A program made the translations under genes and the position numbers. 64,000 nucleotides of DNA from NCBI RefSeq assembly GCF_001027285.1, contig NZ_CP011509.1, positions 8,704,501-8,768,500 of the forward strand. The letters are read 5' to 3'. This document shows positions 51,002 to 55,282 of the stretch, in pieces; the first letter of the stretch is position 1, and each line of letters begins with the position of its first letter. This DNA comes from Archangium gephyra (GTDB lineage: Bacteria; Myxococcota; Myxococcia; Myxococcales; Myxococcaceae). The notes below the pieces were generated by a model, which was not told where the DNA came from, did no database searches, and was given only the letters and a program-made list of their open reading frames with translations.

Positions 51002-51763
51002 ATGGCCATCATCCTGGGACATACCGTCGAGCCGCCCGGCCCCTGCAACTACCTGCCGGATCAGAGTTCCTCGCTGGAGCAGCTCGTGATGCGGGACGTC
51101 ACGGCGGAGGAGTACGAGCGGATGCTCGTGCGCGGGTGGCGCCGCTTCGGCCCGATGTACTTCCGGCCGGCATGCCAGGCGTGCAACCGGTGCGTCTCGC
51201 TGCGCATCCCCACGGACTCCTTCCAGCCCAACCGCAGCCAGCGCCGGGCCCGGGCCGCGTGCGCCCACTTCCGCGTGGAGGTGGGCCCGCCCCGCGTGGA
51301 CGAAAACCGGCTGGCGCTCTACCGCGCCTGGCACGCCGAGCGGGAGCAGACGCGCGAGTGGGACGCCTCACCGCTCGGGATGCGCGACTACTTCCTCCAG
51401 TTCGCCTTCCCCCACCCGGCCGCGCGAGAGGTGGCGTACTACGACGACACCGCCGAGGGCGGGCCCCGGCTGGTGGGCCTGGGCATCTGCGACGAGACGC
51501 CCAACGCCTGGAGCGCGGTGTACTTCTTCTTCGATCCCGCGTACGCGCGCTGCTCGCCGGGCTCCGCCAACGTGGTGTTCCAGGTGGAGCTGGCGCGGGC
51601 GCGGGGCATCCCCCACGTGTACCTCGGCTACCGCGTCCAGGAGTGCGCCTCCCTGCGCTACAAGGGCACGTTCCGCCCCCACGAGCTGCTCGAGGGCCGC
51701 CCCGAGCCGGAGGAGCCCCCGCGCTGGCTTCCCCCGGAGCCCTCCGGAGAGCCCCCGCCGTAG
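51002..51763 (+). CDS. bpt: Aspartate/glutamate leucyl- or arginyltransferase
   Basis: A 253-residue protein-aminoacyl transferase of the ATE/Bpt family that attaches an amino acid to N-terminal acidic residues, feeding the N-degron/Clp pathway. PCNYLPDQSSSLEQ contains the N-terminal cysteine, and GWRRFGPMYFRPACQACNRCVSLRI (in parts), DYFLQFAF, SAVYFFFDPAYARCSPG and YLGYRVQECASLRYKG are the conserved segments. The split between leucyl and arginyl donors cannot be told from the sequence, so bpt is tentative. Confidence 0.87.
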   Translation: MAIILGHTVEPPGPCNYLPDQSSSLEQLVMRDVTAEEYERMLVRGWRRFGPMYFRPACQACNRCVSLRIPTDSFQPNRSQRRARAACAHFRVEVGPPRVDENRLALYRAWHAEREQTREWDASPLGMRDYFLQFAFPHPAAREVAYYDDTAEGGPRLVGLGICDETPNAWSAVYFFFDPAYARCSPGSANVVFQVELARARGIPHVYLGYRVQECASLRYKGTFRPHELLEGRPEPEEPPRWLPPEPSGEPPP

Positions 51764-51766
51764 CGG

Positions 51767-52933
51767 CTACCGGCCGGCCTCCAACCGCCAGCCCCAGAGC
51801 TGCTCGTACTGCCGCCGCAGGAGACTCACGGGGGTCAGCCGGATGGACTGCTCGCGCATCCAGACGGCGGGCGGGCTCTCCCACTGTCCGATGACGCCGA
51901 ACTGCCAGGAGAGCCGTTGCAGCCAGGAGACGCGCTCCCGGCGCCGGGCCTCGTAGTGCCGCAACCCCTGCTCGAGGTCCTCCGAGGCGTCCAGCACCGA
52001 GGCCAGCACGCCCCCATCCTCGATGGCCGAGCACGCGCCCTGTCCCAGGTTGGGAGCCATCGGGTGTGCCGCGTCCCCCAGGAGCGTCACCCTCCCCTCC
52101 CCCCACCGTGCGAGCGGCAGCCGGTCCTGGATGTCGTTGCGCAGGAGCTCCGCCTCGTCCGTGGCGGCGATGAGCTGGGGGATGGGCGCGTGCGCCGTCC
52201 GGAAGGTGTCCAGCAGGAAGGCCTTGTCTCCGCCCGGCACGGGCTGGCCCTGGGGCCAGTTGGCGGTGGCCCACCAGTACACGAGGTCCTCGCGCACGTA
52301 GCCCACGCCGAAGCGCGCCCCCCGGCCCTGCGTCTCGCGCAGCAGGCCCCGGGGAAGCTCCGGGTGCTCGAAGCCGCGCACCAGGCCGCGCCAGCACGGG
52401 TAGCCCGCGTACCGCAGGGGCTCGCCGGGGTGGAGCTGCGCGCGCACCGCCGAGCGCAACCCATCGGCCCCCACCAGCACGTCTCCCCTTGCCTCCCGCC
52501 CATCCTCGAAGCGCGCCACCACGGAGCGCCCATCGTCCTCGAAACGCGCCAGCCGGGCCCCCAGGTGCACGTCTTCATTCCCGAAGGCCTCGTGCAGCGC
52601 CCCGTGCAGGGCCGCGCGGTGGAAGAGCACGGCCGGTGCATCCCCGCAGAAGAAGAGGGCCTCCGCGCGCTCGCGCATCAGCGGCTCCCCGCGCCATGCG
52701 CACAGGTCGAACCGCGTCACCTCCGCGCCCCGCTCCCCCACATGCCGCAGCCCCAGCCCCATCAGCACGCTCATGGCATTGGGCGAGAGCATGAACCCCG
52801 AGCCCACCTCCCGGAGTTGCGGCGCCTGCTCGAACACCTCCACCCCCCAGCCGCTCCGCCGCAGGGCGAGCGCCGCCGTCAGCCCGCCCACCCCTCCGCC
52901 GATGATCAACGCCTTCCGCTTCGCAGCGCACAT
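51767..52933 (-). CDS. FAD-dependent monooxygenase
   Basis: A 388-residue group A flavin monooxygenase. GGGVGGLTAALALRRSG is the Rossmann motif, FHRAALHGAL lies in the middle, VGADGLRSAVR contains the DG motif, and LLGDAAHPMAPNLGQGAC is the FAD-ribityl motif. Substrate is unknown; the family hydroxylates aromatics. A 20-bp palindrome stands about 60 bases before its ATG, and the TetR gene upstream, now frameshifted, was probably its regulator. It converges with bpt across 3 bases. Confidence 0.88.
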   Translation of the reverse strand: MCAAKRKALIIGGGVGGLTAALALRRSGWGVEVFEQAPQLREVGSGFMLSPNAMSVLMGLGLRHVGERGAEVTRFDLCAWRGEPLMRERAEALFFCGDAPAVLFHRAALHGALHEAFGNEDVHLGARLARFEDDGRSVVARFEDGREARGDVLVGADGLRSAVRAQLHPGEPLRYAGYPCWRGLVRGFEHPELPRGLLRETQGRGARFGVGYVREDLVYWWATANWPQGQPVPGGDKAFLLDTFRTAHAPIPQLIAATDEAELLRNDIQDRLPLARWGEGRVTLLGDAAHPMAPNLGQGACSAIEDGGVLASVLDASEDLEQGLRHYEARRRERVSWLQRLSWQFGVIGQWESPPAVWMREQSIRLTPVSLLRRQYEQLWGWRLEAGR

Positions 52934-52992
52934 GACATGACCCCCTGGGATGCCGGGACCCGACCCTGGCCCGAACCTCTCGAACAGGTTCT

Positions 52993-53012
52993 AATTCGAA
53001 CGCGTTCGAATT
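52993..53012. promoter_or_regulatory. Perfect 20-bp palindrome before monooxygenase
   Basis: AATTCGAACGCGTTCGAATT is fully self-complementary. A degenerate second copy of its half-sites (GAACAGGTTC) lies at about 52982-52991. It sits between the frameshifted TetR gene and the monooxygenase start, the expected place for a TetR operator. Confidence 0.65.
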
Positions 53013-53046
53013 TCCAGAAACCCCAGGAGCGGAGCTGATGGCTCCC

Positions 53047-53678
53047 TCAAGTCCGGCTCTTGCGGCTCCTCGGAGAGGCGGGCCGCAGGCCGCGCAGCTG
53101 CAATTCCAGGCTGTCGCGCAGGGCGCTCCGGGTGTCCTCCAGCCCCCGCATGCCGCTCAGCCAGGTGGAGACGTGGAAGAGGTACAGCCCGAATGCGTTG
53201 CTGGCGGCGGTCACGGGCGCCACGTCCGGGTCCACCTCGCCCTGCCGTTGGGCCCGCTCGACGAGCCCGCACAAGCGTTGGAGGACACGCAGGCCCCGCT
53301 CCATCCGGGGCCCCATGTCTCCCCCCCCGGGAAGAGGGTCTCCCGGACGAAGAGACGGGACATCGCCGGGTCACGCGCGTAGTGGTCCATCATCGTCCCG
53401 AAGACGTGCAGGAGCGCCTCGACGAGGCTGGCCTCCTCGGGAAGCGAGGCATAGGAGGCATCCTCCACGCGCCCCCACTCGTCCAGGAAGACCAGATCCA
53501 ACAGCTCGTGCTTCGTCTGGACGTAGGAGTAGAGCGTGCCCAGCCCGATGCCGGCGTGCTCGGCGATCTGCCGGATGGTGGTGGCTTCGAAACCCTGGCG
53601 GGCGAACAGCTCCCGCGCGGCCTGCTTGGCCCGCTCCAGCTTCTCGCGCTTGTTGCGCTCCCGAAGTCCCTCGGCCAT
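53047..53678 (-). pseudogene. TetR family regulator, frameshifted
   Basis: The first frame (start ATG 53678, GGAGG 5 bases upstream) encodes a typical TetR HTH: KQAARELFARQGFEATTIRQIAEHAGIGLGTLYSYV (in parts). It continues to RETLFPGG, then leaves the frame at a run of eight C (plus strand, 53322-53329). A second frame (from about 53316 to 53047) continues the domain with MERGLRVLQRLCGLVERA and LYLFHVSTWLSGM to a normal end. One extra G in the run would restore a full TetR of about 210 residues. This is either a sequencing error, a true mutation or a slippery tract. Confidence 0.75.
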
Positions 53679-53761
53679 CGGCTCCTCCCGGCCCTTTTTG
53701 GACCCCTTTAGCGGGAAAGCGGTGCCGGGCCCACGGCAACGTGTGTAGTGTGCGCCCCGCA

Positions 53762-55282
53762 ATGTCGACGCCAGTCGCCAGATCCAAGCCGCTCCCCTCC
53801 ACCACGGCACCTTCCCGGCACGTCTATGACGTGATCGTCCTGGGCAGCCAGCTGGGTGGAGCGCTCGCCGCGGCACTGCTCGCCAAGCGGGGATACAGCG
53901 TGCTCCTGGTGGAGCACGACGGGACCGGGCCGGGCTACGAGCACGACGGCTTCGTGCTGCCCTATGCCCCCTTCGTCGCCCCGGCCCTCAAGACGATGCC
54001 CGCGGTGGAGGAGGCCTTCACCGAGCTGACGCTCACCGCGGCCCTCCAGCGCAACCTCCAGCCGCACGCGCCCGAGCTGCAGCTGGTGATGCCGCGCCAC
54101 CGCGTGGACCTGCACACCGACGCCGTCCGCCGGCGCGCCGAGCTGGTGCGCGAGTTCGACGCCGAGGGCGAGCGCATCCTCGCGGACCTCACCGCCACGG
54201 CCCTCCAGCACGAGCCCTCTGACGCCTTCTTGAAGGAAGGCCCGCCGCTGCCGCCCGACGGCATCCTGGAGTCCTGGAACCTCAAGAAGCGCGTGGGCCA
54301 GCACCCGGGGCTCCAGACGGAGCCGCGGCTGGCCGGAGAGGACGAGCCCTCCAAGCTGCTGCGCGGCCTGCTGCCCTTCGTCGTCCACCTGGACCAGCCC
54401 GCCACGCCCCTGGCGCGCACGCGCCCCCTGTCCCAGGCCCTGCAGACCCCCTGGCGCTACCCGGGCGGCCGCGATGGCCTGCGCAAGCTGCTCTTCGAGC
54501 GGCTCGTGGAGCTGGGCGGAGATCTGCTCAGCCCCGAGAACACGGACACCTACGTGGTGGAGGAGCTGCACTTCGAGGGAGGCCGCTTCTCCGCGATCAA
54601 GCTGCTGCGCTCGGACACGCTCTACCGGGCCTCGTGCCTGGTGTCCGCCACGGACGCCGGAGCGCTGCGCCGGCTCATCACGGACCGCAAGAAGCACCGC
54701 GGCCTGAGCGAGCAGCTGGACCTGTCCACCCTCAAGTCCTTCCTCTTCACGGTGAACTGGGTACTGCCCGAGGCGGTGCTGCCCCGCGGCATGGGAGAGC
54801 TGTTGTTGCTGGACACCCAGGACGCCGAGCTCGGCCCCCTGCTCGTCCAGCAGCACCCCGCCCGCACGCCCGAGGGAAAGGAAGACCCCGCGCTGCGCGT
54901 CATCTGCGCGGGAGGCTTCGTGCCCGCCAGCGTGCGCGACCTCGGCGAGGGCTACCTCCAGTCGCTGGCCATGCGCATCGACGCCCACCTGGACGCGTTG
55001 ATGCCCTTCACGAAGGACAAGCGCCTGCTGCGCTCGGCCCCCTACCTGGATGCCGGGGCGGTGCGAGGCAGCCGGCTCATGCCCCACCCGCACTACGTCT
55101 TCGACACGGAAGCGGTGCTGGGCGTCACGGGGTTGAAACAGCACACTCCCACGAAGAACCTGCTGCTGGCTGGACGCGAGGTCCTCCCCGGCCTGGGGCT
55201 CGAGGGGGAGTTCCTGGCGGGTGCCCGCGCGGTGCGCCTCGTCCAGGAGATGCTCAAGAAGAAGGCGGTCCTCAAGCGCTGA
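53762..55282 (+). CDS. Phytoene desaturase-like FAD oxidoreductase
   Basis: A 506-residue NAD(P)/FAD oxidoreductase of the carotenoid-desaturase/amine-oxidase type. [26 protein letters not shown] is a Rossmann motif with the usual GxGxxG changed to [29 protein letters not shown] and VVSATDAG-like [13 protein letters not shown] match the family, and [26 protein letters not shown] closes it (in parts). It is divergent from the frameshifted TetR gene. Substrate unknown; no other carotenoid gene is near. Confidence 0.82.

Follow-up and report, generated by a model that had tools for sequence, protein, structure and literature searches.

A split tetR gene and a tandem operator before a class A flavin monooxygenase gene in Archangium gephyra

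Results

A tetR–monooxygenase cassette with a broken regulator frame

The window analysed here is a stretch of 64,000 nucleotides (64 kb) from the genome of Archangium gephyra (NZ_CP011509.1), referred to as G000. On its minus strand a tetR gene, an operator and a gene for a class A flavin monooxygenase (FMO) follow one another, and the 113-bp gap between the two genes holds the operator palindrome. The features of the locus, in window positions, are as follows.

51002–51763, plus strand: arginyltransferase gene, left neighbour of the FMO–tetR cassette (PF04377, PF04376; NF002344 at 253.8 bits, cut-off 252)
51767–52933, minus strand: class A FAD monooxygenase (FMO) gene, intact, 388 aa (PF01494), the presumed TetR target
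52982–53007: tandem operator GAACNNGTTC-N6-GAACNNGTTC, one copy in G000
52993–53012: perfect 20-bp palindrome AATTCGAACGCGTTCGAATT, which contains, in its inner part, the operator half nearer to tetR
53047–53316, minus strand: open reading frame of the C-terminal part of tetR, 89 aa in the other frame, with the stop codon counted in the coordinates
53321–53328: C8 run (G8 on the coding strand), the site of the frame break, interrupted and in frame in relatives
53331–53678, minus strand: N-terminal part of tetR in the conserved frame, 116 codons, helix-turn-helix (HTH) and first ligand-domain helices
53762–55282, plus strand: FAD/NAD oxidoreductase gene, right neighbour of the cassette (PF13450)

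The sequence and the open reading frames of the window place the whole split tetR at 53678–53047 on the minus strand. The gene starts with the ATG at 53678 and leaves its conserved frame at the C8 run; as assembled, the N-terminal reading frame continues to 155 aa and stops at 53213–53211, and the C-terminal frame picks up at 53316 and ends at 53047. Instead of a single uninterrupted reading frame of about 200 aa, the assembled gene thus has two frames, one of 155 and one of 89 aa. The 155-aa product matches TetR_N (PF00440) with 50.5 bits against a cut-off of 24, identifying a TetR-type HTH. The C-terminal part has no family match, and an intact ortholog scores 23.3 bits against TetR_C_21, below the cut-off of 26.2. 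A truncated TetR would keep the HTH part only and lack the dimerisation helices at the C-terminal end of the TetR fold. The original prediction had described a TetR frame broken in a run of eight C, a perfect 20-bp palindrome next to it and an intact monooxygenase gene, and all three descriptions agree with what we found.

The FMO matches PF01494 (FAD_binding_3) with 72.2 bits against a cut-off of 22, as a class A FAD monooxygenase should. Its translation contains GGGVGG, GADG and LLGDAAHP, corresponding to the GxGxxG, DG and GD motifs, which we take to be the class A FAD monooxygenase motifs. The nearest solved structures are those of a flavoprotein monooxygenase, 3rp6 and 3rp8 (E 4.3e-46 and 1.3e-45). 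The dN/dS ratio of the FMO was 0.27–0.33 against the orthologs L007–L011 and L013 (about 0.30 against those of G003 and G006), 0.42 against L012 and 0.41–0.47 against the distant L014 and L015, and these comparisons indicate that the FMO is under purifying selection.

The cassette is an accessory unit

In G000, G003 and G006, the FMO and tetR genes sit between the arginyltransferase and oxidoreductase genes, and in six other genomes (G002, G004, G005, G031, G032 and G033) these flanking genes are direct neighbours, leaving the site empty. The flanking genes of G000 are, among the loci compared, closest to those of G004 (95–96% identity), where the site is empty and no FMO was detected above the limit used. 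The tetR–FMO pair occurs at other sites in G036 and G038, and FMO orthologs without this tetR are found at other sites in G005 and G031–G033 and at the same chromosomal site in G034. This distribution of occupied, empty and displaced sites marks the FMO–tetR pair as an accessory unit. With five FMO orthologs found in the absence of this tetR, the FMO is able to do without its regulator, whose loss is tolerated. The site in G034 (L012/L048) also lacks the operator; the regulator here is naturally lost or absent.

Intact tetR orthologs and little sign of decay

Orthologs of tetR with 75–92% identity over the N-terminal part were found in four of the 95 other family genomes (G003, G006, G036 and G038), so that five of 96 family genomes carry the gene when G000 is included. 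Each of the four other orthologs is one open frame, of 210, 210, 211 and 211 aa. In the alignment, the stretch that corresponds to the C8 run is broken up by other bases in all four, and the pure run is restricted to G000. The intact orthologs with their interrupted stretch show that the long run is new in G000 and not a conserved repeat. A further collection of contigs, from which records of the same genome were possibly excluded, yielded only distant TetRs with 34–50% identity in the best segment.

The N-terminal part of the window tetR is 92% identical to the intact orthologs L037 and L038; the C-terminal part is 71–72% identical to them and has zero internal stops. The dN/dS ratios against L037 and L038 were 0.09–0.12 for the N-terminal and 0.55–0.57 for the C-terminal part, compared with 0.16 and 0.28 between L037 and L038, and with 0.24–0.30 and 0.43–0.62 against the more distant ortholog pair used as outgroup. 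The C-terminal ratio of the window gene is therefore above that of the L037–L038 pair, yet similar to the outgroup comparisons. When changes were polarised by L039, amino-acid changes found only in the window and those shared by L037 and L038 stood at 3 to 2 in the N-terminal and 6 to 4 in the C-terminal part. Internal stops, polarised changes and dN/dS thus gave no clear decay of the downstream half of tetR. With a stop-free C-terminal part and no clear excess of changes, tetR is unlikely to have been dead for long, which leaves a recent break or an error. Taken over both genes, sequence comparison indicates that purifying selection acts on tetR as well as on the FMO.

G000 also carries a tetR paralog (G000:C1:12153195-12153539; L002, L168), which is 52–56% identical over the N-terminal part (55% over 115 aa) and which each of the six examined genomes of the genus carries. 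The 7 kb of G000 sequence taken for this paralog did not contain the tandem operator.

A tandem operator confined to TetR–FMO loci

The 20-bp palindrome is the sole match at up to three mismatches in the 64 kb, compared with 0.00 expected in shuffled sequences, and its core is kept in all four orthologous loci. A second palindrome of the same type, GAACAGGTTC, lies at 52982–52991, and the centres of the two GAACNNGTTC-type sites are 16 bp apart; the original prediction had overlooked both this second palindrome and the non-conservation of the run in relatives. The pattern GAACNNGTTC-N6-GAACNNGTTC occurs as one site each in 17 of 96 family genomes, and the total over the 145 genomes of the order is also 17. 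The reversed control pattern gave zero sites in either set. All 17 sites lie next to TetR and FMO genes (12/12 loci in one set examined and 5/5 in another). When the spacer was left free from 0 to 26, 54 sites were found, of which spacer 6 accounted for 17, spacer 5 for eight and spacer 2 for seven, as tallied by hand from the site list.

In five of the 17 loci, the Archangium type, tetR and the FMO gene flank the operator. In the other twelve, the distant type (L149, L150 and L153–L162, from twelve genomes of two other genera), the 17-row alignment places the operator directly before the tetR start; their TetRs are 30–36% and their FMOs 34–39% identical. In one of these loci, L149, the tetR and FMO genes overlap on one strand. 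A TTGAC box precedes the operator at a near-constant distance in ten of the twelve distant loci, and, as we read the aligned loci, a TATGAA -10 box would be overlapped by the first palindrome. An operator that overlaps the promoter before tetR is the arrangement of a repressor. A palindromic operator at the target promoter, the mark of a TetR repressor, is thus found by comparison alone; a scan of 52900–53800 for sigma-70 promoters found none. At the level of sequence, comparison of the loci establishes that TetR and FMO are paired and that the operator is tandem with a fixed spacing, and since all 17 tandem-operator sites adjoin TetR–FMO pairs, control of the FMO by TetR appears well supported. 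We also considered a wider regulon: the five other CGAACRYGTTCG sites in G000 are without AT-rich flanks or a second palindrome and look like chance occurrences.

Three conserved genes are broken at G/C runs in the G000 assembly

Four genomes (G000, G002, G003 and G006) were compared over 8.56–8.96 Mb of G000, that is 400 kb (332 kb for G003). We searched the open reading frames of each genome against the others and retained those whose divergence, judged by codon position, was that of coding sequence. A gene entered the count of broken genes when two or more of the other genomes revealed the break and the sequence was coding on either side of it. Between 93 and 200 genes were compared per genome pair. 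By this two-genome rule, three genes are broken in G000, none in G006 and G003, and one in G002, the latter without a run. The three breaks in G000 lie in tetR (C8), an anmK-type gene (C10) and an amidase/golvesin-domain gene (G7), and at each site a pure run is one base short where the relatives have an interrupted run. The anmK-type gene, near G000:C1 8774022 (L099), lies outside the window, is intact in G002, G003 and G006, and its G006 ortholog matches PF03702. The amidase/golvesin-domain gene, of 936–993 aa and also outside the window, lies near 8610333 (L091) and has a possible second shift at 8609811.

Many early frameshift candidates resembled over-extended open reading frames and were removed by the codon-position filter and the two-genome rule. 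Candidates resting on a single genome, some of them coding on both sides, occur in all four genomes and were excluded from every count alike; the second shift of the G7 gene, in a variable stretch, is among them. The tetR break was doubtful at a stricter codon-position limit (0.43 against 0.45), the final limit being 0.40. A second 400-kb block, compared with G006 alone and of uncertain collinearity, gave no further break in G000, and because of these limits we base the main count on the first block. Run-length spectra were alike across the genomes, with five runs of length 8 and one of length 10 in the 400 kb of G000; hence the runs themselves are not odd, and it is the loss of frame at runs that is odd. 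Two G/C runs of length 8 within conserved G000 genes are intact, which counts against an artefact.

Discussion

We favour a homopolymer error at the C8 run over a real recent knock-out of the regulator, with a probability of about 0.6. The loss of one base at pure runs is the signature of such errors, although the cases number only three and long runs are favoured by real slippage as well. The G000 assembly was, we presume, sequenced by PacBio. Excerpts of two studies describe long-read errors as predominantly short indels tied to homopolymers (PMC12007338), and homopolymer length as the commonest residual error of bacterial assemblies made from long reads only (PMC8812927).

The strongest competitor, which we hold to be the less probable by a clear step, is a real recent frameshift, in which slippage in the lineage-specific G/C run removed one base, so that the type strain has lost its repressor and expresses the FMO constitutively. 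The assembled sequence is unambiguous, the FMO orthologs without this tetR set a precedent, and a pure run that is unique to G000 among the five carriers of the gene is a new mutable site. Against it stand the two further conserved genes broken alike in the same assembly, with none at runs in the three comparison genomes, as well as an operator that is still a perfect palindrome and a C-terminal half of tetR that is still free of stops. That conserved G000 genes have lost single bases at G/C runs more often than those of the comparison genomes makes real loss of the regulator the less likely outcome. The fuller proposition that in the A. gephyra type strain a mobile TetR–FMO cassette has lost its repressor by natural mutation, and that the double-palindrome operator of this cassette, with its rigid 16-bp centre spacing, is kept in two lineages with TetRs only 30–36% identical, strikes us as tentative and rather unlikely as a whole.

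The original prediction had also offered phase variation of the repressor, with the C8 run as the switch. A coding mononucleotide run of eight could slip, but comparison with relatives speaks against a switch: a phase-variable repeat would be kept as a tract, other bases interrupt this stretch in each of the four intact orthologs, and runs of eight are not unusual in G000. We consider phase variation very improbable. Equally far-fetched, or slightly more so, is transcriptional slippage or ribosomal frameshifting at G8 giving some full-length repressor, for which the downstream frame is open and conserved to the normal C-terminus, but the four orthologs are uninterrupted single frames, so that no programmed shift is conserved. 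Of the proposal that the regulator is lost or phase-variable, what stands is the broken frame as assembled.

If the break is an assembly error, as we think most likely, the repressor probably works in the living strain. We picture an accessory two-gene cassette in which a TetR repressor would sit on a tandem operator before the class A flavin monooxygenase gene, probably as two dimers on the two palindromes 16 bp apart. TetR would repress the FMO gene, and binding of a small-molecule inducer, perhaps the FMO substrate, would release it. The regulatory unit is, in our view, a real one of an ordinary kind, in which a local TetR represses a flavin monooxygenase and the tandem operator is unusually clean. 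The linkage of TetR, operator and monooxygenase in the original prediction therefore holds, carried by the 17 tandem-operator loci, and the derepression of the monooxygenase that it had proposed is conditional on a real break.

An artefact would caution against reading one-base frameshifts at G/C runs of this reference genome, which affect three genes in one 400-kb stretch, as pseudogenes or switches. The 26-bp operator pattern picks out 17 TetR–FMO loci in 145 genomes with zero sites elsewhere, and being confined to these loci, it yields target predictions for 17 regulators in one step. The FMO would be derepressed and constitutively expressed only in the case of a real break, and the strain could then reveal the FMO substrate.

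A literature search, judged by titles and the beginnings of abstracts, found no described system of this kind. EthR–EthA resembles the window pair in that a TetR regulator lies beside the monooxygenase it represses; unlike the window FMO, EthA is a Baeyer–Villiger enzyme of another flavin class, and the operator layout differs. On the enzyme side, the window FMO resembles the HpxO-like class A flavoprotein monooxygenases, NF033623 matching residues 7–337 of 388. The score of 220.4 bits is below the cut-off of 500, and we therefore do not assign the FMO as a urate hydroxylase (HpxO); the match to tetracycline destructase (NF033476) reaches 67 bits against a cut-off of 550.

On the regulator side, the best NCBIfam match of the N-terminal TetR part is the TetR-family regulator KstR (NF033703), with 44.5 bits against a cut-off of 280, the N-terminal part alone having been scanned, and we did not adopt this identity. 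Both palindromes of the window fit the KstR motif TnnAACnnGTTnnA given in excerpts of the KstR study, where the motif partly overlaps the -10 box of the KstR promoter (PMC1995591). Unlike KstR, the window TetR has a single apparent target, tandem sites and an FMO in place of a lipid regulon.
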